A stretch of 28,118 nt of DNA. Origin: a virus. The translations under genes were made by a program, and so were the position numbers. The notes beneath the pieces were generated by a model that worked only from the letters and a program-made list of their open reading frames with translations, did no database searches and had not been told where the DNA came from. Shown in pieces: positions 2,264 to 25,707 of this stretch (position 1 is its first letter; every line of letters begins with the position of its first letter). The stretch covers positions 1 to 28,118 of the IMG/VR virus record IMGVR_UViG_3300042549_006589, one strand, 5' to 3'.

Positions 2264-2398
2264 GTTCCTGTACCGATAATGATGGTGTTCCTCTTTCCGT
2301 ATATATACATATACGGAACGGAACGAACACCGATCACGCTCATTTCTGCCTGTGTTCCCTTTTTGAAAAAGGAACACAAAAGGAACGGAACGAACACC
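2264..2398. repeat. GTTCC/GGAAC repeat region (candidate origin or operator)
   Basis: The gap after the primase-helicase gene holds eight GTTCC/GGAAC pentamers: 2264, 2287, 2315, 2320, 2354, 2371, 2382 and 2387. A 17-bp sequence starting GGAACGG is repeated exactly at 2315-2331 and 2382-2398. The first copy is the right arm of a large imperfect palindrome (2284-2331) centred on ccgtatat-atac-atatacgg (2297-2316), an AT-rich core. A second hairpin has tgtgttcc and ggaacaca arms (2351-2358, 2371-2378). Repeats plus an AT-rich palindrome beside a replication gene suggest an origin with iterons; a repressor-operator array or 3'-end hairpins are alternatives. Confidence 0.6.
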
Positions 2399-4521
2399 TA
2401 GTTTGCCCCCAAGTAAGAGATTTTGGCATCAACAAAGCTGAAATGATCTTTGCCGATCTCTGAAAGATAGAGAACAAATGACCTGTCATTGCCCCTGTTT
2501 TCAATCCATCCACCTGCGACCAAATCGCCAATGATGTTGCCAATGGACTCCTTGGAACCCGCAACCCCATCCTGAACCATTCGGCGGGTACTGCCAGGGT
2601 GATTGTGAATGAACTCAGCTACCTCTTTGAGTTTCTTAAACTCGCGGTTGGCATCTGCCTCATCCTCGCGCAATGGCACACCAATCACATATTCCATTTG
2701 CGGGCGAGTCGAATCAATGGTGAAGATAGCGGCTTCCTGCATACGATCTTTGCCCTTTTGCGCCCCTGCCTTTCGGCGTACATCACCGGGACGGTCTTTG
2801 GTCACTCGCATTGATATTGTGCCGATCTTGCCGGGGGCTAACAATTCAATTGGCTCACATAGGTAGGCAGCGCCATCAATTGTTGCCAACTTACTCTGCC
2901 CGCCGATGGCAAACCGCCCGCGTGTTTCTGCGTTCTTAGTAATGTGATCAATCAGCACAACGGCAGCGCCCGAGGCGGTGGCAACTGTTCTTGGAAAAAT
3001 TCGCATCCAACGGGTGATTTCGTCATTGTCTTTGGTCTGCCCGCCCCACATTGTCAGGGCTTCGGTGACTCCATCAATTATGACTAGAACGGCGCGGTCA
3101 GGTTCAAGAATATCTTGCCAATATGTGTCATTTACATCTCTTGGGCCGTCAGGTCGAATATATGAGAAGTATTGCAAGAGGTTGGCGCGACTCACGCCTA
3201 GCACCTTGAGGCGGTTTACGATGTCAATGGCATCGGATTCAAAGTCAATATAGATAACCTTTTGGTCAATCTTGAGTAATTCAGCGGTGGCAATTTGAGC
3301 AATCCAAGACTTTCCCGACTCAGATTCACCATAAAATGAGTGAACCTTGCCAGGATAAATCAACCCTGCGCCGTCACTTCGCTTCAAGATGGTGGCACTT
3401 GGAGTTTGGAATAGCCCATCAAAGTAATCCTTTAGGGCAATTGGCTTCCAACTTGACTCATCATCGCTTAAATCGGCGGTGGTGACTTGTGAAGGGGCTT
3501 CAATGGCATTTGTTGCCAATAAATTATTTGTGGGTTGTAGCTCTTTGAGTTCTGTTGCCCCGTAGCCAAGATTTCTTAATTGTAAGGCAGCCTGCTTGAA
3601 ATCCCCTGAGGTGTTAAGGTGAGCGTAAGCGGCAAACTTAGAATAAGAACTTTCAGCTTCAAAGATGGTTGAGGTTGAGAAAACAAATAGTTTGTCATTT
3701 CCGTTGAAATTGGTGGTCGCGCTGATGCCTTCATTTTTATTCGGTCTGCGCCAAACTGTTGCCTCACCCTTTTGATAAACCTTTGACCAACCAAGGGGCA
3801 AAAGGATTTCATCCCAAGTAGTGCGGGCATTGTAATCGTCACCGGGGCTTAAAGTGCCATCGTGCTTGGCAACGACATCTGCCTGAATTACTTGCGCCTT
3901 TGGCATCTCATCAAACATCGCAAAAATTTGATGAAGTGCTGCTCTTTCGTACATTGTAATCTTTGGGATTGACTCAATTGAACCGCCAATTAGTGTCCAA
4001 TTGCCACCGTTAGGGTGAGTTGAACCGCCTGATGGCGCGGTGATGGTGAACCCGCCTTCGCTTCGCGTTTCGGCAAACACATCCACGCCGCCGTTTTCGC
4101 CTGGCTTTCGCGCTAACTTGGTGTTGCCAGGGATTTCGCCGTCAATGACTCGGTAAAGCCAATGCAACCCGCCTGATGGTGTTATCTCAACATATCCCGC
4201 ATTTAGGCGCTGCCAAAGTTCGCCTAACCCTGAGTTGTTGGCAATCTCAGCAATATCAAGGTGCATCTTTTGCGATACTGCTCGACCTTCAAGCTCTAGC
4301 ATCTCAAGGTTGCCCGACACTTTGCCGGTGATTACACCAATGCCATCAACATCGTGCTTAAACCAAAGCAATAATTCATCGGCAGTTGGCAGTTGCTCTT
4401 GGTATTTCTGCCAAGATAAAGCGGGGCGCTTGCTTCCGTCATTTGCGACAGGAACAACGCTAATGCCTTCAGCTAAGAAGCGAAGTGCGGTGGTTAGCGT
4501 TGCGTTATTCAATCGGCTCAC
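2398..4521 (-). CDS. Bifunctional primase-polymerase / RecA-fold helicase
   Basis: A 707-aa fused replication protein. Residues 1-200 resemble the archaeo-eukaryotic prim-pol domain: KRPALSW near 31-37, an acidic LELEG motif at 75-79 where the metal-binding aspartates usually lie, SGGLH at 116-120 and GVDVFAE at 145-151. A linker (about 225-325) leads to a RecA-like ATPase with Walker A GESESGKS (398-405), Walker B VLVIIDG (478-484) and IGGQSKLATIDGAA (539-552), as in RepA/DnaB-type helicases. The C-terminus (625-690) looks like a winged helix. It probably primes and unwinds DNA at the phage fork. Start is GTG at 4521, overlapping the upstream ORF by 17 bp. Active-site Glu in place of Asp is unusual and should be compared with relatives. 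Confidence 0.88.
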   Translation of the reverse strand: MSRLNNATLTTALRFLAEGISVVPVANDGSKRPALSWQKYQEQLPTADELLLWFKHDVDGIGVITGKVSGNLEMLELEGRAVSQKMHLDIAEIANNSGLGELWQRLNAGYVEITPSGGLHWLYRVIDGEIPGNTKLARKPGENGGVDVFAETRSEGGFTITAPSGGSTHPNGGNWTLIGGSIESIPKITMYERAALHQIFAMFDEMPKAQVIQADVVAKHDGTLSPGDDYNARTTWDEILLPLGWSKVYQKGEATVWRRPNKNEGISATTNFNGNDKLFVFSTSTIFEAESSYSKFAAYAHLNTSGDFKQAALQLRNLGYGATELKELQPTNNLLATNAIEAPSQVTTADLSDDESSWKPIALKDYFDGLFQTPSATILKRSDGAGLIYPGKVHSFYGESESGKSWIAQIATAELLKIDQKVIYIDFESDAIDIVNRLKVLGVSRANLLQYFSYIRPDGPRDVNDTYWQDILEPDRAVLVIIDGVTEALTMWGGQTKDNDEITRWMRIFPRTVATASGAAVVLIDHITKNAETRGRFAIGGQSKLATIDGAAYLCEPIELLAPGKIGTISMRVTKDRPGDVRRKAGAQKGKDRMQEAAIFTIDSTRPQMEYVIGVPLREDEADANREFKKLKEVAEFIHNHPGSTRRMVQDGVAGSKESIGNIIGDLVAGGWIENRGNDRSFVLYLSEIGKDHFSFVDAKISYLGAN

Positions 4522-4810
4522 CGTTTAACTGAGCAACCATTCTAGTAATAATCCATTCAACTACCGGCACGGCTACCGCGTTGCCCGTTTGTTTGTATCT
4601 TGTCAAATCTGAATGACCTGATGTCCAATCGTCAGGGAAACCCTGTAATCGTTCGGTTTCAACAGGTGTCAATTTTCTTAATAAATTTTCTTCAATAATG
4701 ATGTGAGTGTGAAATTTCATTGGGGGTGAATTTTTCTTTGTTGTATAAACCCTCATTGCCTCACCCATTTCAGCCCAAGGTGTTAGACAATCAACACTTG
4801 GTTCAAGCAC
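4505..4810 (-). CDS. C-terminal module of a cytosine-C5 methyltransferase (second copy)
   Basis: A 101-aa ORF with only the C-terminal part of a C5 methyltransferase. Residues 47-66 carry motif IX (LTPVETERLQGFPDDWTSG) and 72-85 motif X (RYKQTGNAVAVPVV). The first 40 residues, including DCLTPW, differ wholly from the preceding ORF and may be a remnant or alternative target-recognition domain. Motifs I-VIII are absent, so it cannot methylate alone. Over 50 residues it matches the C-terminus of the beta ORF at 41 positions by eye, so the two arose by duplication. It starts at GTG 4810, overlapping the beta stop, and runs into the primase-helicase gene. It is either a decaying copy or an exchangeable partner for the alpha ORF. 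Confidence 0.65.
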   Translation of the reverse strand: MLEPSVDCLTPWAEMGEAMRVYTTKKNSPPMKFHTHIIIEENLLRKLTPVETERLQGFPDDWTSGHSDLTRYKQTGNAVAVPVVEWIITRMVAQLNGEPIE

Positions 4811-5438
4811 TTATTTGCCCAACCATTCTAGTAATAATCCATTCGACCACTGGTACCGCTACCGCGTTACCCATTTGCTTATAGCGGTTTGAATCTGCTT
4901 GCCCCGATGTCCAATCGTCAGGAAATCCTTGTAGGCGTTCACATTCAACGGGTGTTAAACGGCGAACGGTTTGTTCTGTTGCTACTCCGTGACCACTCAC
5001 ACGATCAAGTGTAAACATTGGTGAGCCATCATCACTAAAACCTTTACCTTGTGGCCCTGATGTGTCAGCTCTACCAATCACTGTTCCCTGAATTGGGATT
5101 GCTACCGCTTGACCGCCTGTTGTGTCTAGTGTGTAAGCCGGTGCATTTTCATCACCAATTCCTAAACCATTTTGATTCTTTTCCATTTCTCGCCCATCTT
5201 GAATCGGAAAAATCATTGGCACATTCCCCCCGCCCGTTCCATATCTCGAAATTACTGTTGGCATAATGCCATCTTCATAAACTCGCACATCGTTAACGCG
5301 AGTTCCATCAATAATCAAAACTGTTGCTCTTGTTTCGCTTGCGTTATCAAATACATTCAAAGTTGGTACTACCCCCCCAAAAATCCAAGTTTCGTAATCA
5401 TCAACATTTTGCGCCCGGCGCGATTTAGTCCACCACAT
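4803..5438 (-). CDS. Cytosine-C5 methyltransferase, beta part (TRD, motifs IX-X)
   Basis: A 211-aa ORF with the target-recognition region and C-terminus of a C5 methyltransferase, in the +1 frame relative to the alpha ORF. KSRRAQNVDDYETW...GGVVPTLNVFDN near the N-terminus and repeated TLDTTGG / TLDRVSG segments are typical of phage Dcm recognition regions. Motif IX (RRLTPVECERLQGFPDDWT) and motif X (RYKQMGNAVAVPVVEWI) end it. ATG 5438 has an AGG six bases upstream and overlaps the alpha stop by 14 bp. The split between motif VIII and the TRD matches the known two-subunit enzyme M.AquI. A single-base error in the sequence, or a +1 frameshift making one protein, remain alternatives. Confidence 0.72.
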   Translation of the reverse strand: MWWTKSRRAQNVDDYETWIFGGVVPTLNVFDNASETRATVLIIDGTRVNDVRVYEDGIMPTVISRYGTGGGNVPMIFPIQDGREMEKNQNGLGIGDENAPAYTLDTTGGQAVAIPIQGTVIGRADTSGPQGKGFSDDGSPMFTLDRVSGHGVATEQTVRRLTPVECERLQGFPDDWTSGQADSNRYKQMGNAVAVPVVEWIITRMVGQISA

Positions 5439-6180
5439 CAACAACCTGCAATAAACCTGAGTTAACGGCTTGGTTTGAACCCATCCCTTTTGTTAAATCT
5501 GAAACTGTTAGGGCATCAATTATTTTTCCTGCTCGGCTACCTTTTCCAACGCTGTCTGAAGTTGTAGAGGCAGAACCTTTCCGCGTTTGTTTGCTCGCCT
5601 CAAGATACCTTGCGCGGCCTTCGCTGAGAGCGAGTATTTCTGCAGGTGTTCCCCCTGTACCTCTAAGACATCCGACAATGAACACTCTACGGCGGCGTTG
5701 GGGAACTCCGAAGTGTTGAGCATCAAGCACTCGCCACCCGACATCAAACCCGATGCCATCCAACGCTGTGATGACTGTTGCCATATCTCTTCCGTCATTT
5801 GAGGATAATAAACCAGGCACATTTTCGAGAATGAAGTTTTCCGCTTTGGTTTCGGTAAGGAGTCTGACGATTTCCCAAAATAATCCTGATCTACTTCCTT
5901 GAAGTCCTGCTCGTTTTCCTGCAACTGACAAATCCTGACAAGGGAAACCACCGGTGATGATTCCTCGCTTTGGGTTAAATCCTGCTTGAATAAGTTGTTC
6001 ACCTGTTACCCCCGTGACATCGCCAAAGATTGTTGAGTTCGGGAAGTGTCGGCGCAACACATCCTGAGCTTTCTTGTCTATTTCTACACTTGCAACCACT
6101 TTTACACCTTGGCGTTCAAGTGCTAAATCGAATCCACCGACACCCGCAAAGAGTGAAACGGCGGTGATCTCGCCTACCAT
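5425..6180 (-). CDS. Cytosine-C5 DNA methyltransferase, alpha part (motifs I-VIII)
   Basis: A 251-aa protein with the S-adenosylmethionine-binding and catalytic half of a C5 methyltransferase. Motif I is SLFAGVGGFDLALE (9-22), motif IV GGFPCQDLSVAG with nucleophile C81, motif VI ENVPG (119-123) and motif VIII QRRRRVFIVG (161-170). Motifs IX and X are missing; they are in the next ORF in another frame. A phage methyltransferase would mark its DNA against host restriction; no endonuclease gene is adjacent. Chosen start is ATG 6180, which overlaps the stop of the 45-aa ORF (ATGGTAG); an in-frame TTG exists at 6195. The acidic linker after residue 190 is low in complexity. Confidence 0.88.
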   Translation of the reverse strand: MVGEITAVSLFAGVGGFDLALERQGVKVVASVEIDKKAQDVLRRHFPNSTIFGDVTGVTGEQLIQAGFNPKRGIITGGFPCQDLSVAGKRAGLQGSRSGLFWEIVRLLTETKAENFILENVPGLLSSNDGRDMATVITALDGIGFDVGWRVLDAQHFGVPQRRRRVFIVGCLRGTGGTPAEILALSEGRARYLEASKQTRKGSASTTSDSVGKGSRAGKIIDALTVSDLTKGMGSNQAVNSGLLQVVDVVD

Positions 6181-6311
6181 TCCAACGCCATCCAAAAGAT
6201 GCCCAAATCAATTGATAATGTCCACTTATCAATTACGATTCCTAAGCCGAATCCTTTACGCGTTCCAAATGACATAAACAAGCCATCTTTGATTCTGATT
6301 TCTTTGACCAT
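6174..6311 (-). CDS. Small hypothetical protein (45 aa)
   Basis: A 45-aa ORF (MVKEIRIKDG...GIFWMALEW) with a basic GTRKGFGLGI centre and alternating hydrophobic residues, suggesting a small beta structure. Both junctions are tight: its ATG shares TAATG with the FmdB-like gene and its stop overlaps the methyltransferase start. I recall similar sequences in other actinophages but no function. Confidence 0.6.
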   Translation of the reverse strand: MVKEIRIKDGLFMSFGTRKGFGLGIVIDKWTLSIDLGIFWMALEW

Positions 6312-6481
6312 TAGTCTTTCCCCCAACCCGTTCCCTTAAAATGAACGGCAGGTGCCGCCCAAACCCGTTCCATCGCTATCTCGCAATTGCTGCATTTGTA
6401 ATCAATCTCAGCTTCATCAACCTTGCGAAAGATTGGCATTACCACTTCGCACTTTGGGCATTTGTAATCAATGATTGGCAA
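6311..6481 (-). CDS. FmdB-family zinc-ribbon protein
   Basis: A 56-aa zinc ribbon. It begins with PIIDYKCPKC (C8/C11), has a second pair CSNC (C30/C33) and ends with the family signature APAVHFKGTGW. FmdB-type proteins are putative regulators found beside amidase or metabolic genes and in many phages; their action is unclear. Start is TTG 6481, with AAGG five bases upstream; the usual MP.. start of the family supports it. It overlaps the preceding ORF by 14 bp and shares TAATG with the next gene. Confidence 0.78.
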   Translation of the reverse strand: MPIIDYKCPKCEVVMPIFRKVDEAEIDYKCSNCEIAMERVWAAPAVHFKGTGWGKD

Positions 6482-6608
6482 TGTAACCTTCTTTCCTTAA
6501 TATCGCAGCGATCACCTTTGCCATTCGCCAAGGCGTATCAGGCAAAGATTCTTCATAAGATTTCCAAAGCGCAAAGGCAATGGCACCCTCAAGACTATCG
6601 CGGCTCAA
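6468..6608 (-). CDS. Small hypothetical protein (46 aa)
   Basis: A 46-aa probably helical protein (LEGAIAFALWKSYEESLPDT...). The start is TTG 6608, seven bases after a strong AGGGGGAG ribosome-binding site; the ATG between them opens a frame that stops after six codons. It overlaps the FmdB-like gene by 14 bp. No family recognised; reality rests on the ribosome-binding site and on filling an otherwise empty stretch. Confidence 0.5.
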   Translation of the reverse strand: MSRDSLEGAIAFALWKSYEESLPDTPWRMAKVIAAILRKEGYIANH

Positions 6609-6642
6609 AGTTCATCTCCCCCTTGTGAATTGCTGTTCTTGT

Positions 6643-6704
6643 GAAATGGTTGGAATCGAACCAACTGAAGGCGCTTCCCCCCGCCAACGCAAACCTGCCA
6701 TTTC
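6643..6704 (-). other. tRNA T-arm-like element in a 133-bp gap
   Basis: The gap 6609-6741 has no gene. On the minus strand it contains a perfect T-arm, GTTGG-TTCGATT-CCAAC (6666-6650 region), followed by CATTTC that pairs with GAAATG 62 nt away (6704-6699), as an acceptor stem would. The middle is about ten bases too short for D and anticodon arms and shows no good anticodon stem, so it is not a normal tRNA. It could be a degraded tRNA or phage attachment-site homology to the 3' end of a host tRNA. Nearby are a direct repeat (ccccgccaacg at 6679 and 6708) and a tccccg/cgggga hairpin (6707-6733). Confidence 0.35.
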
Positions 6705-6741
6705 GTTCCCCGCCAACGACATTGAAACGGGGAGATTTAGT

Positions 6742-7188
6742 TTATTGCTTTTGTGCGCCTAATTGTGCCAACAATGCGGCAACTTCAGGTGTAATCCCCG
6801 CAGGTGAATCAACCACCGCAGGGGCAGGGGTATTCGCCTCACCAATAAAAGCATTTGCTTTCGCAACTGCTGCGACATCGCCTGTTGCATCTAGCAGTAT
6901 CCAGGGGGCCGACTTTCCCGGTTTTGCCACCCCGCTGGAAATACGGGCTAAAACTTTCTGCCCAACCTTTGCCTTGAGTGCGTTCTTTAGTGCGACATTG
7001 AAGAACAAAACATTGTTGTAAGTTTTGCTGTTGTCAAGATCAACAAGGTTCACTTCAATTGCATCGGTTTCGCCGTGAACTGTTTGAATACCAACTTTGT
7101 ATTCAATTGGTTCGATGATTAGTAAAAATCCTGCTAAGTCTGCGACCTTAACACTTTCGGTGGAGCTACTTGGTGCGCTGAATGTCAT
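6742..7188 (-). CDS. Putative OB-fold single-strand DNA-binding-like protein
   Basis: A 148-aa protein with a beta-rich core (residues 18-100: LLIIEPIEYKVGIQTVHG...AIEVNLVDLD...VGQKVLARI) and a low-complexity tail rich in Ala and Pro ending EVAALLAQLGAQKQ. Related actinophage proteins sit in the same place, after the Cas4-like nuclease, and a single-strand binding role fits core length, neighbours and tail, but no aromatic DNA-binding motif proves it. The ATG at 7188 has GGGGGA seven bases upstream and shares ATGA with the preceding stop. Confidence 0.55.
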   Translation of the reverse strand: MTFSAPSSSTESVKVADLAGFLLIIEPIEYKVGIQTVHGETDAIEVNLVDLDNSKTYNNVLFFNVALKNALKAKVGQKVLARISSGVAKPGKSAPWILLDATGDVAAVAKANAFIGEANTPAPAVVDSPAGITPEVAALLAQLGAQKQ

Positions 7189-7331
7189 TTGACATCCCCC
7201 GTTTCTGTTTGGGTGTTGCTTGGTTGTTGGTTTTCCAACTCTATTGGTGGATTTAACTCAGCCAATTCCTTGGCTATGTCATTGATCGTTTTGGCAGGCA
7301 TCCCGCAGGCGCATCCATCGGTGCAGCACAT
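7185..7331 (-). CDS. Small cysteine-rich protein (48 aa)
   Basis: A 48-aa protein starting MCCTDGCACGMPAK, with four cysteines in the first nine residues that could bind a metal, then a helix and a polar tail. The start at 7331 shares TAATG with the previous gene; the stop shares ATGA with the OB-fold-like gene. No function known. Confidence 0.65.
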   Translation of the reverse strand: MCCTDGCACGMPAKTINDIAKELAELNPPIELENQQPSNTQTETGDVK

Positions 7332-7534
7332 TAGGCTCTCATTCCTTGTTTTACTGCTTCGATTGTTGAGCAAGGATAAACCCAACCATCACACTCATCA
7401 CAATTTAATCCAAAAGAACCATCAGGTAAAGTAATTTCGTGCGGTTCGTGTAGCTCAATAACTTCTTTGAGTGCATTTTCCTGTTGGGAACAAGTCAAGG
7501 TTTTAATTGTGGCTAAAAAATCATCATATTTCAT
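7331..7534 (-). CDS. Hypothetical protein with CDECDGWVYPC motif
   Basis: A 67-aa protein: a helical N-terminus (MKYDDFLATIKTLTCSQQEN) and a compact Cys motif (NCDECDGWVYPCSTIEA) that also ends many short actinobacterial and actinophage hypotheticals and may bind zinc. The ATG at 7534 is chosen over the longer frame because it shares ATGA with the nuclease stop. Function unknown. Confidence 0.68.
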   Translation of the reverse strand: MKYDDFLATIKTLTCSQQENALKEVIELHEPHEITLPDGSFGLNCDECDGWVYPCSTIEAVKQGMRA

Positions 7535-8274
7535 TTTGCTTCCGTATCTCCATTGCAGGCAACCGATAGATCGGTGCTGAATGGTCTGAAGTACGGGCAA
7601 TAATTACAATTCCGCGATGGCACCGCAGGAATAACTGCCCACATTGTAGGTGACTTCTCAACATCAACTGTTGATAAAAGCTCATAAACATTATCTAGGC
7701 GCTGGAGTGCGCCTACGGCAATTTTCTCATCATAAGGATGAAGTTCAAGAAACATATCGGATATTTGGCCGCCAGTTGGGAGAAAGGCAAGCCCAACTTG
7801 CTTAACATCGTGGCCTTCTTGCGCCTTGCCGTAGGCGTACAACATAACCTGAATTATCTGTTGTTGGCTCGCACCGCTATTGCGCTTCTCCTTGACATTA
7901 GCGGGTGAGGTTGTTTTCCAATCAATGACAATTCCGTTTTCCTTATCGTAGAGGTCAACTGTCCCGGAAAGGTTGGCACGAATCTTAACCTTGCTCTCGA
8001 CCTCAAAACGATCAGGAAACTTTGCGAAGATACCTTCTAAGTGAGAGTGAATGGCAGTTCCAACTTGAGCTGCCCAATTGCCCCCACTTGATTCATTCAC
8101 CTTTGCCCAATCAAGTAATTTATAGGCTAACTTGCGGGTGCATTCTTGCCCCACTTCACTTGGGCCAATATAAACCTGCTGCGAACGGGGCGAGAAAATA
8201 CCCGCTTGAGTAATAATCTCGCCCAATTCGATTGCAAGCGCCTTACTTGGAGTGTTCAAAGGTGTAAAGGTCAT
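7531..8274 (-). CDS. Cas4/RecB-like PD-(D/E)XK exonuclease
   Basis: A 247-aa nuclease of the Cas4/RecB type. Residues 71-80 (VGTAIHSHLE) carry the leading His, D107 lies in SGTVDLYD, DWK (118-120) gives the catalytic Asp and Lys, and QVMLYAYG (142-149) is the QxxxY motif. One cysteine at C45 and three near the end (C223, C226, C240) match the four ligands of the Cas4 iron-sulfur cluster. No CRISPR array or other cas gene is present, so this is a phage recombination or end-processing nuclease. Followed, with ATGA overlaps, by two small Cys-rich genes and the OB-fold-like gene, which suggests a recombination group. Confidence 0.85.
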   Translation of the reverse strand: MTFTPLNTPSKALAIELGEIITQAGIFSPRSQQVYIGPSEVGQECTRKLAYKLLDWAKVNESSGGNWAAQVGTAIHSHLEGIFAKFPDRFEVESKVKIRANLSGTVDLYDKENGIVIDWKTTSPANVKEKRNSGASQQQIIQVMLYAYGKAQEGHDVKQVGLAFLPTGGQISDMFLELHPYDEKIAVGALQRLDNVYELLSTVDVEKSPTMWAVIPAVPSRNCNYCPYFRPFSTDLSVACNGDTEAK

Positions 8275-8277
8275 TGC

Positions 8278-8622
8278 TTATTCATCATCTCTTACAACGG
8301 TGAATCGGCGGGTGGTTGAAACAACTTCAAGCAAGTCAATCACTTGGGCAGGCAGGATTTCTCGCGCCCGCTTAGTATCAAATCGCTTGCTCTCAACAAC
8401 CGACCATCGAACGACAGGGCGATTGCCAAACATCCCAACTTGAGAATCGCCAAGGGCAGATTCTAAATGTGAACGGGCAATGTCAGCTACCTCTTGCCAT
8501 TCTTTAATCTTTGCTAACGCTGACTTGTATTGTTCAAGCCACGCATTTGCATCGGCATCAAAATCAACGATGCCTTTCTCAATTTCAACGGTCACTTTAA
8601 CCCCCAAAGTTTTTAGTACCAT
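8278..8622 (-). CDS. Conserved protein preceding the Cas4-like nuclease
   Basis: A 114-aa protein: a helical middle (LEQYKSALAKIKEWQEVADIAR) and a conserved-looking C-terminus, VVRWSVVESKRFDTKRARE then LPAQVIDLLEVVSTTRRFTV. This signature recurs, as I recall, in phage proteins beside YqaJ/Cas4-like nucleases, so it may be an accessory of that nuclease. Start is uncertain: ATG 8622 overlaps the upstream stop by 10 bp but lacks a good ribosome-binding site; GTG 8595 has GGGGG five bases upstream. The downstream nuclease starts 4 bp after its stop. Confidence 0.6.
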   Translation of the reverse strand: MVLKTLGVKVTVEIEKGIVDFDADANAWLEQYKSALAKIKEWQEVADIARSHLESALGDSQVGMFGNRPVVRWSVVESKRFDTKRAREILPAQVIDLLEVVSTTRRFTVVRDDE

Positions 8623-8999
8623 TTGTCTTTTTTGAACTTTGCCCAGGCAGCGCAGGGGCCACCCGAACCATATTTTCTGCCAATGTAAGCAAGGGCAGCA
8701 ACGGTTTGGGCAACTTCAGATGAACTCCGCTTTAGCCCAAGGTTTCTATAAGTTGAATCTAACAATTGCCCAACACCTGATGCTGAACTTGTTGGATTCT
8801 TTTTATCTTTCCAAGCGGATTCCTTACCCATAAGGGCTGTGAAACACTTGAAATCTTTTTTAGTAAGTAGCTCGCGGGCGAGTTCCTTGTGATTAACCTG
8901 CATCAAAATCGGCAATTCTTTGTAAATGACCGATTGAGGAATTGCAGGTGTTGGATTTACTGCTTGAACCAATAGTGAAGTCACTGTGCTAACCACCAA
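8613..8999 (-). CDS. Exported lytic-transglycosylase-like protein
   Basis: A 128-aa protein whose residues 52-128 resemble the SLT/lysozyme-like fold used by actinobacterial cell-wall enzymes: CFTALMGKESAW with candidate catalytic E59, NPTSSASGVGQLLDSTY, then IGRKYGSGGPCAAWAKF. It probably cuts peptidoglycan. The listed start is the in-frame TTG 8999, which has no ribosome-binding site and cuts into a hydrophobic segment. Extending upstream gives a basic stretch (KPNTKRVINR) followed by IALILVVSTVTSLLVQA, a convincing signal peptide or anchor; the only good ribosome-binding site, GAGAAGGAG (9060-9052), lies seven bases before an ATC codon at 9044. The true start is therefore probably 9044. 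It overlaps the whiB-like gene. Confidence 0.7.
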   Translation of the reverse strand: MVVSTVTSLLVQAVNPTPAIPQSVIYKELPILMQVNHKELARELLTKKDFKCFTALMGKESAWKDKKNPTSSASGVGQLLDSTYRNLGLKRSSSEVAQTVAALAYIGRKYGSGGPCAAWAKFKKDKWY

Positions 9000-9451
9000 T
9001 ATAAGGGCGATTCGGTTGATGACTCTTTTTGTGTTTGGTTTGATTGGATTGCTCCTTCTCTAGCTGCCTTCGCAAGTTGTGCCGAAACCTTGTAAACATA
9101 TTGGCTCGAACATTCAACTGTGATGGCAATTTCGTTGGCGCTTTTGTTTTCCCATAACATCTGATGAATCATAATTGCTTTCTTAGATATTACAGTTCGC
9201 CGGCTTTTGCGGTTGATACTTTGCCGTTGATCGGCGGTGTAACCACCCCAAAATCCGTAAACAATTCGCTTGTCAAGTGCGTACTCCAAACATTCCTCTC
9301 TATGAATACAACTCCCGCAGATTTGCTTGAGTCGGGGCAGGCGTTCTGCCTCATCGTGCTTTGTATCTGGAAAGAAATAATCTTTATCCTCAACTTTTGC
9401 ACATTGGGCTTCTCGGAACTTGGGTGAATCGCTGAAAATGTCAAAGTTCAT
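8981..9451 (-). CDS. WhiB-family transcriptional regulator with HTH extension
   Basis: A 156-aa WhiB-like protein. The four iron-sulfur ligands are C17, C45, C48 and C54 (C..CxxCxxxxxC) and GFWGG (66-70) is the family turn. WhiB proteins bind sigma factor region 4 and alter promoter choice; phage versions can redirect or block host transcription. Usual WhiB proteins end soon after the basic RKSRR region (81-85); here residues 91-128 (AIMIHQMLWENKSANEIAI...SSQYVYKV) look like an added helix-turn-helix. ATG 9451 shares ATGA with the previous stop. AAGGAG lies directly against the ATG, an odd spacing, so coupling to upstream translation is likely. Confidence 0.92.
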   Translation of the reverse strand: MNFDIFSDSPKFREAQCAKVEDKDYFFPDTKHDEAERLPRLKQICGSCIHREECLEYALDKRIVYGFWGGYTADQRQSINRKSRRTVISKKAIMIHQMLWENKSANEIAITVECSSQYVYKVSAQLAKAAREGAIQSNQTQKESSTESPLYWWLAQ

Positions 9452-9801
9452 CTCCTTGTTCCGTAGCCCGCATCTCTAAGTAAATTAGTGATTTGTTCAA
9501 GCGACATAATCGCCCACCAATTCGCGGTGTTAGCAGTTCCAACACCATTAGGTTTTACAACCAAAACGCCAAAGTCTGCTTTAGCGTTCTTTGTTTCCAA
9601 CTCGATTTCTTTTAACCAAGCAGGAATTTTATAGGTTTTGTGATTCTTAACTTCCCAAGCCAAGGCAGGGGTGCCTGTTATATCGCCAAGATCAAGTGCG
9701 CCATTTAGCGCACGGCGTTCGGCGTAGGGAAAACCGTTATCAATTAAGAATTTGACAACGGCAGTTTCCGCTGAGGTTCCCTTTGCTTTGGCTTTAGACA
9801 T
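9448..9801 (-). CDS. Holliday-junction-resolvase-like PD-(D/E)XK nuclease
   Basis: A 117-aa nuclease-fold protein. KGTSAETAVVKFLIDNG (8-24) holds the leading Glu, GALDLGDITG (34-43) the metal-binding Asp and WEVKNH (49-54) the E-x-K active site. This resembles Hjc and RecU-like resolvases, which cut four-way junctions. With endonuclease VII also present, the phage has two candidate junction-cleaving enzymes. ATG 9801 is chosen, sharing TGATG with the small upstream ORF; a TTG lies one codon earlier. Confidence 0.8.
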   Translation of the reverse strand: MSKAKAKGTSAETAVVKFLIDNGFPYAERRALNGALDLGDITGTPALAWEVKNHKTYKIPAWLKEIELETKNAKADFGVLVVKPNGVGTANTANWWAIMSLEQITNLLRDAGYGTRR

Positions 9802-9884
9802 CAAATCTCGCCGTTACTTCGAGCAAAAATTCCAACAACTGAAATCACGCAAATAATCATTACAATTAGAGCTAACCAAAACAT
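9801..9884 (-). CDS. Tiny membrane protein (27 aa)
   Basis: A 27-aa ORF, MFWLALIVMIICVISVVGIF followed by ARSNGEI: one hydrophobic segment with a short polar tail. AAGGA lies about nine bases before the ATG at 9884 and the stop overlaps the resolvase start as TGATG. The rest of the gap (9885-9952) has no ORF. Function unknown. Confidence 0.5.
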   Translation of the reverse strand: MFWLALIVMIICVISVVGIFARSNGEI

Positions 9885-9952: not shown

Positions 9953-10525
9953 CTAGCGGTTAAATTGAATCTCAACCTGAAATGGTGGCGAAGTGTTCAC
10001 ATCAAACTTAGCTGAGATTTCAAGGGCAGTTTTGATGGCGTTGGTGGCGGTGTCAATGTTTAGTGTTTCTCCTGTTGCTTCGCCGTAAACATCAGCCATT
10101 GAAGTTAGGTAGCCAATGGCGTACGCGCTACCCGACCCGATGCCGTAGGTGAAGTCTATTGATTGCGAGATGCCTAGATCATTGCCAATTTCAAAGATGT
10201 TGCCATTAAAGGCGAGCAAATAGGCAAAGCTCGCGCCTTCTTTTTGGTAATCGTAGCCATTGTCTTTGAACGCCTTGATAATGCTTGGAATCACCTTTCG
10301 ACCCATAAACCCAACAGGGTCGGTGCCATCGTATAGGGGCGGTTTCCAGTTATACATAAGCACATCACCGGGGCGGCAATCTCCGCAGACTCCCAAAAGG
10401 TACTTGCCAACCTTTACGATTTTGGGCGTTGAAGGCGAAATGATGCGTTTGTCACCATCGGTGATTTGGCTGTCAGCTCCAAGGATGGCAAAGCCTTTGC
10501 CCTGGTAGCCTGCGATTGTGGTCAT
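9953..10525 (-). CDS. Proteasome-beta/HslV-like Ntn hydrolase
   Basis: A 190-aa protein of the N-terminal-nucleophile fold of proteasome beta and HslV subunits. Removal of Met1 exposes Thr2 in TTIAGYQGKG, the nucleophile position. D18 (GADSQ) and K35 (TPKIVKV) fit catalytic Asp17 and Lys33/34, and GIGSGSAYAIGYL (128-140) matches the conserved glycine/serine turn. There is almost no propeptide, as in HslV. No ATPase ring partner is visible, so it may form its own chamber, use the host unfoldase, or act on small substrates. It heads the left operon, divergent from the plus-strand cassette. The ATG at 10525 has no ribosome-binding site; TAGAAT (10539-10534) just before it suggests a leaderless transcript. 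The frame upstream of 10525 is non-coding. Confidence 0.82.
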   Translation of the reverse strand: MTTIAGYQGKGFAILGADSQITDGDKRIISPSTPKIVKVGKYLLGVCGDCRPGDVLMYNWKPPLYDGTDPVGFMGRKVIPSIIKAFKDNGYDYQKEGASFAYLLAFNGNIFEIGNDLGISQSIDFTYGIGSGSAYAIGYLTSMADVYGEATGETLNIDTATNAIKTALEISAKFDVNTSPPFQVEIQFNR

Positions 10526-10533
10526 AGGGGTCA

Positions 10534-10539
10534 ATTCTA
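10534..10539 (-). promoter_or_regulatory. Candidate -10 element of the leftward operon
   Basis: TAGAAT on the minus strand ends nine bases before the A of the Ntn-hydrolase ATG, and no ribosome-binding site intervenes, the arrangement of a leaderless actinobacterial transcript. No good -35 is seen. Low confidence. Confidence 0.3.
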
Positions 10540-10607
10540 CCCTTTTGAGGGGTATATGTGGGGTGGGTAACAGGCGGAAAATTAGCCTCATTTGCCTTGG
10601 GCGTGTC

Positions 10608-10637
10608 TTGACACTCTGTCGTGACAAATGCTAAGGT
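10608..10637 (+). promoter_or_regulatory. Promoter of the plus-strand cassette
   Basis: A perfect -35 TTGACA (10608-10613) and TAAGGT (10632-10637, fitting the actinobacterial TAnnnT -10) are 18 bp apart. Transcription would begin near 10643-10645, about 40 bases before the first ATG at 10684. It lies in the 158-bp divergent region 10526-10683. Confidence 0.65.
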
Positions 10638-24849: not shown

Positions 24850-25284
24850 TTACGGTGTAATTGATTTTGTAATTTGACCTGAGATAGGCCAAGTTGCCGA
24901 AACCGTGGCCAGTTCGCCCACGGCGCCTGAAACTGCTTGCCATTCTGCCACAAGCGCGTTAAAGGTATATTTCGGATTGCTTGCGCTGACTGTTGTGTTA
25001 ACTGGGCGAATCTCCATTGCCGCAACTAAACCAACAGTTCCATTTGTTGTTGTTGTGCCATTGATTAGTTCTTCAAGGGCATTGTCTGCGTAATCTTGAT
25101 TGAACTCAATTGTGATTGAGTTATCAGCAAGGCCAGCAACGCGGGTGCGAGCTGCGCCTGTAGTTGAAATTCCTGTAGTGTCAATAACATCATAGCTTGT
25201 GCTTAAACTTATTGAAGTCACATATTGAGAGATGTCGTTGCTTGCGAACACCACATAGGCATTTGTTAAAACTAAGCGTGGCAT
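24850..25284 (-). CDS. Major tail (tube) protein, paralogue 2
   Basis: A 144-aa beta-rich tail tube protein. It shares with its upstream neighbour a start of the MxRxVLT type, then ISQYVTSISLSTSYDVIDTT, RTRVAGLADNSITIEFNQDY and AVSGAVGELATVSATWPISG. Tube proteins stack as hexamers. It lacks a clear ribosome-binding site, so translation may be coupled to paralogue 1, whose stop is 3 bp away. The loop between residues 78 and 98 differs most between the two. Confidence 0.82.
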   Translation of the reverse strand: MPRLVLTNAYVVFASNDISQYVTSISLSTSYDVIDTTGISTTGAARTRVAGLADNSITIEFNQDYADNALEELINGTTTTNGTVGLVAAMEIRPVNTTVSASNPKYTFNALVAEWQAVSGAVGELATVSATWPISGQITKSITP

Positions 25285-25287
25285 ATA

Positions 25288-25707
25288 TTAAACCGCCTTC
25301 GTGATTACGCCTGAGATAGGCCAAGTTGCACTAATTGTTGCAAGTTCGCCCACGGCACCTGAAAGGGCTTGCCATTCGGCTACAACGGCTGAGAATGTGT
25401 AGCTAGGATTGCTCGCACCAACTGCTGCTGATGTTGGCTTTACAACACAAGTTACATTTGTTCCAACAAGTGATGAACCAACTGCGTTAATTGTTGCTTC
25501 AGGCGCAGATGTTGCAAAATCTTGATTGAACTCAAAGGTAACTGAATTGTCAGCAAGTCCTGATTGGCGCGTGCGCGCTCCAGCAGAACCCATCCCGGTA
25601 GTGTCAACCACATCTTCGCTTGTGCTAAGAGCTACGCTCGTAATAAATTCAGAAAGATTGATGCCGTTGATTACAACTGAAGCATCTGTTAAGACTATAC
25701 GGGCCAT
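25288..25707 (-). CDS. Major tail (tube) protein, paralogue 1
   Basis: A 139-aa tail tube protein, paralogous to 24850-25284 along its whole length (LSEFITSVALSTSEDVVDTT; LADNSVTFEFNQDF; ALSGAVGELATISATWPISG). One copy may be the tube and the other a tip, terminator-side or decorated variant, or both may alternate in the tube; sequence alone cannot decide. ATG 25707 adjoins the stop of the 55-aa gene. Confidence 0.82.
   Translation of the reverse strand: MARIVLTDASVVINGINLSEFITSVALSTSEDVVDTTGMGSAGARTRQSGLADNSVTFEFNQDFATSAPEATINAVGSSLVGTNVTCVVKPTSAAVGASNPSYTFSAVVAEWQALSGAVGELATISATWPISGVITKAV

Follow-up and report, generated by a model that had tools for sequence, protein, structure and literature searches.

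The window analysed here, a stretch of 28,118 nucleotides of viral DNA, carries a leftward operon headed by a gene for a proteasome-like protein (Table 1). Translation of this gene gave a product with the N-terminus MTTI and the sequence MTTIAGYQGKGFAILGADSQITDGDKRIISPSTPK...GSGSAYA..., in which the GSGSAYA motif occupies residues 130-136. Counted with Thr2 as residue 1, the aspartate and the lysine of the catalytic set fall at 17 and 34, just as the preliminary description had read them together with the motif, while canonical proteasome and HslV numbering gives 17 and 33. One additional residue precedes Lys35 of the phage protein, and Lys35 still aligned with HslV Lys33. The reading frame is open further upstream, to a TTG at 10627. 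Threonine directly follows the start codon in 284 of 286 homologous genes among the matches listed, and since the homologues start Met-Thr at this point the ATG at 10525 was taken as the correct start.

Table 1. Features of the protease gene and the leftward operon in the window
Feature	Coordinates	Strand	Remarks
Putative leaderless promoter	10526..10554	(-)	-10-like box TAGAAT ending 8 nt before the ATG; palindrome TACCC-N7-GGGTA overlapping the box
Proteasome-like (group I, HslV/BPH-related) N-terminal-threonine hydrolase gene	9953..10525	(-)	190 aa; Thr2 (predicted nucleophile), Asp18, Lys35, Gly130-Ser131-Gly132
PHROG 244, annotated 'RusA-like Holliday junction resolvase'	9448..9804	(-)	next gene of the operon; at +712 bp (median) in 21/22 close relatives
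WhiB-family transcription factor	8981..9451	(-)	Pfam Whib E 6e-14; two genes downstream of the protease
Rest of the leftward operon	2398..8999	(-)	transglycosylase-like, RecE-like fragment, PD-(D/E)XK/Cas4-like exonuclease, DNA methyltransferase pieces, polymerase/primase

Family membership was evaluated with profile searches and a set of homologues drawn from 34 GenBank phage records and four IMG/VR scans, which added hundreds more matches (up to 80 per scan among the matches listed). The protein matched PHROG 1040, 'peptidase HslV family', with an E value of 1.3e-23 and the Pfam Proteasome family (PF00227) with an E value of 9e-7 and 29.1 bits against a gathering score of 22.4. PF00227 also matched 53 of 99 relatives at E <= 1e-3. 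Among the matches listed, Asp18 and Lys35 were present in all 226 distinct phage homologues, Thr2 in 225 with a serine in the remaining one, and Gly130 in 225, and the loss of Thr2, Asp18 or Lys35 in homologues that the preliminary description had raised was therefore not observed. Judged from the PHROG 1040 and Pfam matches and the conserved triad, similarity to the proteasome/HslV family is far beyond chance. Three residues outside the triad were conserved specifically in this family among the matches listed, R51 (206/226), P62 (207/226) and P63 (221/226). The median dN/dS was 0.08 over 205 pairs from the window's own clade. The gene is under purifying selection and its active site is under strict selection, which argues for catalysis and against a decoy.

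The fold was predicted with AlphaFold2 using 99 relatives as input and the resulting model had a pLDDT of 94.5 and a pTM of 0.89. HslV and BPH were the top Foldseek matches of this model (E about 1e-10), and a family profile searched against solved chains likewise returned HslV and BPH first with E values down to 7e-15. VIA-align gave Z scores of 18.5-19.6 to 20S beta, HslV and BPH over 151-174 residues (rmsd 2.6-3.3) and did not separate the three; the score to 20S beta was about 19, with 18.6 for Mycobacterium tuberculosis 3mi0 and 18.5 for 5lzp. In the model, then, the phage protein has the proteasome-type Ntn sandwich fold, which bears out the proteasome-beta/HslV-type fold proposed earlier, and no other fold was indicated. 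The modelled chain has helices at 50-59 and 70-88 and a final strand at 183-188, after which it ends without an S12/H5 element. Absence of S12/H5 and a Met-Thr start, which means no propeptide, are the traits of group I. Because an Ntn fold is predicted, the triad is conserved and the dN/dS is 0.08, the protein is very probably an active threonine peptidase.

The label 'proteasome-beta/HslV-like' held for an Ntn hydrolase with an intact catalytic set but not for HslV proper. Fold, Thr/Asp/Lys, a GSGG-type motif and the N-terminal threonine are common to HslV (ClpQ) and the phage protein, whereas HslV has the WRTDxxLRxLEA stretch and its partner HslU and the phage protein has neither. Curated HslV models scored 16.7 bits against a cut-off of 137 and 13.8 bits against a cut-off of 157.75, and an alignment with 12 HslV sequences showed WRTDxxLRxLEA with the basic pore cluster R86/R89/K90 to be absent. 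Mutation of this cluster severely lowers HslV activity (PMC5777263). In the tree, HslV sequences also grouped as a clade of their own, joined by a long branch; near-root support values are uncertain after re-rooting.

Phage proteasome homologues have been described before, in the groups PPH and AAH of Fuchs, Alva and Lupas 2021 (PMC8665760), so the idea of such a phage protease is not new. The phage family (PHROG 1040; PPH, AAH) is known already and functionally uncharacterised, and the window gene is a further member. Our literature search found no experimental paper on any phage HslV-like protein. PPH proteins resemble the window protein in being phage-borne, in the Met-Thr start, in the common catalytic set and in the PHROG 1040 match, although this PHROG is broad and also matches HslV in most proteobacterial genomes. 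They are, however, about 140 residues long and lack helix H2 (PMC8665760), and PPH membership was rejected for the window protein on its length of 190 residues and its two helices. A PPH-like bacterial protein found in our searches (L290) has 148 residues. Together with HslV, BPH (PDB 5ovs, 5ovu) is among the closest characterised relatives; its subunits build double rings, epoxomicin binds to its Thr1, and no unfoldase is known for it (PMC5777263). BPH and the phage protein agree in fold, active site, group I type and the lack of an unfoldase, but identity is only about 20% and BPH is a bacterial chromosomal gene. The pore loop is strongly acidic in BPH and near neutral in the phage protein, where it reads KDNGYDYQKEGA; the family's net charge there has a median of -1 and the long acidic loop of the BPH type was not found. 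As HslV and PPH are excluded, we consider the protein a putative AAH-like group I homologue, an assignment made by exclusion, size and host range. It shares with AAH the group I type, a compact subunit that lacks the C-terminal helix H5, occurrence in phages and actinobacteria and the lack of an AAA+ partner. The difference lies in the hosts, as the 2021 survey could not find an Actinobacteria-specific phage with an AAH (PMC8665760) whereas such genes occur here in WhiB-carrying and isolated actinophages.

Isolated actinophages with a homologue included Hum25 and Pitbull, both from Arthrobacter, and Microbacterium phage Pumpernickel; Actinomycetia phage DSL-LC01 has one as well, and the homologues in these Arthrobacter and Microbacterium phages and in DSL-LC01 are annotated 'protease' or 'ATP-dependent protease subunit'. 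Related genes are also widespread in phages infecting other hosts, Vibrio and Aeromonas among them. No chromosomal homologue was confirmed in an initial scan covering 84,980 genomes, and a second genome scan returned a single one, on a gammaproteobacterial MAG contig that is possibly phage. Plasmids yielded two distant rhizobial/burkholderial copies whose neighbours had no informative content. Searching 299 proteobacterial genomes with phrog_1040 returned mostly HslV plus a few PPH-like proteins. Aeromonas phage 2L372X carries two adjacent proteasome-like genes (L056:4001-4552 and from L056:4570), one of the long type and one short and PPH-like, both with Thr/Asp/Lys; the pair is possibly a two-subunit enzyme.

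The region upstream of the gene was compared between relatives. A TANNNT box lay 5-9 nt upstream of the start in 22 of 22 genes of the window's clade and 65 of 65 of its sister clade, against a background of 4.6% at random positions, and a Shine-Dalgarno-like site was found in none of these 87. By contrast, the gene set collected with the A3 alignment had such a site in 48 of 79 cases. Since the box is close to the start in 87/87 genes and Shine-Dalgarno-like sites occur in 0/87, the transcript is probably leaderless, and the sequence supports an arrangement in which the promoter abuts the start codon. The proposal that this is the first and possibly leaderless gene of its operon gains support from these counts and from its position at the operon head. 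The palindrome (10538-10554) overlaps the -10-like box, is conserved in the close relatives of the window clade and occurs once in the window, where 0.22 occurrences would be expected with one mismatch allowed. It is a candidate operator, although this is suggestive only.

Downstream of the protease the order protease, (resolvase), WhiB, transglycosylase-like, exonuclease and polymerase/primase is conserved, and the main genes of the rest of the operon also lie downstream of the protease in relatives. Conservation of the transglycosylase-like neighbour fails in other lineages. WhiB was found in 20 of 22 close and 56 of 65 sister-clade loci and is encoded by 18 of 22 related records. In the DSL-LC01-like lineage, which is distinct from that of the window, it adjoins the protease gene in five of eight records (L044:8001-8954, L213, L255, L281, L221); no WhiB match was obtained in the remaining three, which include fragments. 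In freshwater phages WhiB is taken to indicate an actinobacterial host (PMC6802176), and its presence in the operon marks the host of this virus as actinobacterial. From the content of the operon, the protease gene would be expressed early. The DNA methyltransferase of the operon is in pieces: 5425-6195 (-) encodes its N-terminal part, and there are two tandem copies of its C-terminal part (4505-4810 and 4803-5444, (-)), which have 68% identity over 65 aa. Elsewhere in the window, two adjacent major-tail-protein-like genes (24850-25284 and 25288-25707, (-)) are 57% identical.

Other phages place the gene differently. It adjoins thymidylate synthase in Pantoea, Geobacillus and Microbacterium phages and lies near terminase or portal in others. 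At least one record has a proteasome-like gene near portal or terminase plus a separate head-maturation protease (L177:3190-3714 and 4497-5201). A role as head-maturation protease was rejected for the window, where the gene heads a replication operon. Because gene positions differ this much among phages, genomic context points to no single process, and the contexts suggest that phages of very different kinds benefit from a function not tied to head assembly. The Vibrio phages V6Aob and 2.058.O each encode a polypeptide deformylase (L053:3283-3771, L054:2498-2995), a few genes upstream of the HslV-like gene. Phage deformylases are common, and a nearby deformylase may suit exposure of the N-terminal threonine or may be a coincidence.

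The window was also searched for an unfoldase. Neither Pfam AAA nor AAA_2 was found in it, in agreement with the preliminary description. AAA_2, the type of the HslU partner, was likewise absent from 20 related records, many of which may be incomplete or fragments, and AAA was absent from the window-clade relatives, whose records may also be incomplete. AAA matches were limited to ct2KA10-like, DSL-LC01 and Pumpernickel records and none adjoined the protease gene.

Together we consider it fairly probable that the gene product is a threonine peptidase of proteasome fold, made as the leaderless first product of the replication operon and assembled as a BPH-like ring without a dedicated unfoldase. 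A leaderless mRNA would yield the protease as the first product of this operon, and Met1 would be deformylated and cleaved off, presumably by the host deformylase and methionine aminopeptidase, to expose Thr2. The Thr2 hydroxyl would then attack peptide bonds assisted by Asp18 and Lys35. By analogy with BPH the subunits would most likely form a homo-oligomeric ring or double ring. As there is no phage ATPase, the substrates during host takeover would probably be unfolded or accessible proteins, or proteins that a host chaperone or unfoldase brings in. Three points count against this reading. The H3-H4 loop of the window's own clade is longer than that of HslV, and in proteasomes H3/H4 make the ring-ring contact (PMC8665760); connectase is a proteasome homologue that can be monomeric and a ligase (PMC8665760); and the contexts of the gene are varied.

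The connectase precedent also raises an alternative: as a monomer or small oligomer, the protein could be a specific peptidase or transpeptidase of low turnover with one or few host or phage targets, and it might, for instance, inactivate a regulatory or defence protein. In its favour, no AAA or AAA_2 unfoldase was found in the window and the window-clade relatives, and the conserved R51 and P62-P63 could form a dedicated site. We consider this unlikely, as the model lacks the two-helix insertion of connectase between S3 and S4, the ring-forming HslV and BPH are the nearest relatives in both sequence and fold, and PADLOC models, which cover defence and not counter-defence, gave no match to the protein. 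The protein could instead be a viral replacement core docking onto a host AAA+ unfoldase of the Mpa/ARC or ClpX/ClpC type. The proteasome and HslV operate in this way and, with no phage ATPase, the partner would have to be the host's, but the absence of the WRTDxxLRxLEA stretch with R86/R89/K90 makes this docking quite improbable.

Two further readings were considered. Its fold is similar to bacterial 20S beta, including the two M. tuberculosis structures, and many actinobacteria have a proteasome, so that it could be a decoy or dominant-negative subunit disturbing the host 20S proteasome. A strictly conserved catalytic triad is unexpected for a decoy, however, and related genes are widespread in phages of Vibrio, Aeromonas and similar hosts, which have HslV and are not known to have a 20S proteasome, making this very unlikely. 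The Ntn fold serves many amide bonds and a transglycosylase-like gene lies within the operon, as would fit a non-proteolytic amidohydrolase whose substrate is a small molecule or an amide of the cell wall. The similarity is specific to proteasome-type Ntn proteins, however, and the transglycosylase-like neighbour is not kept in other lineages, leaving this reading with hardly any likelihood.

The strictly conserved active site, the fixed operon-head position, a mappable promoter and culturable phages with a related gene (Hum25, Pitbull, Pumpernickel) provide good handles for study of this lineage. The lineage fills the gap stated in PMC8665760, AAH in actinobacterial phages, as many carry an AAH-like gene here, named isolates included. 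More tentatively, and with considerable doubt on our part, actinophages may carry an ATPase-independent proteasome-like chamber that is made first, from a leaderless and often WhiB-linked gene, and that clears or processes host proteins at takeover. If true, this would be a viral proteasome core with a function of its own.
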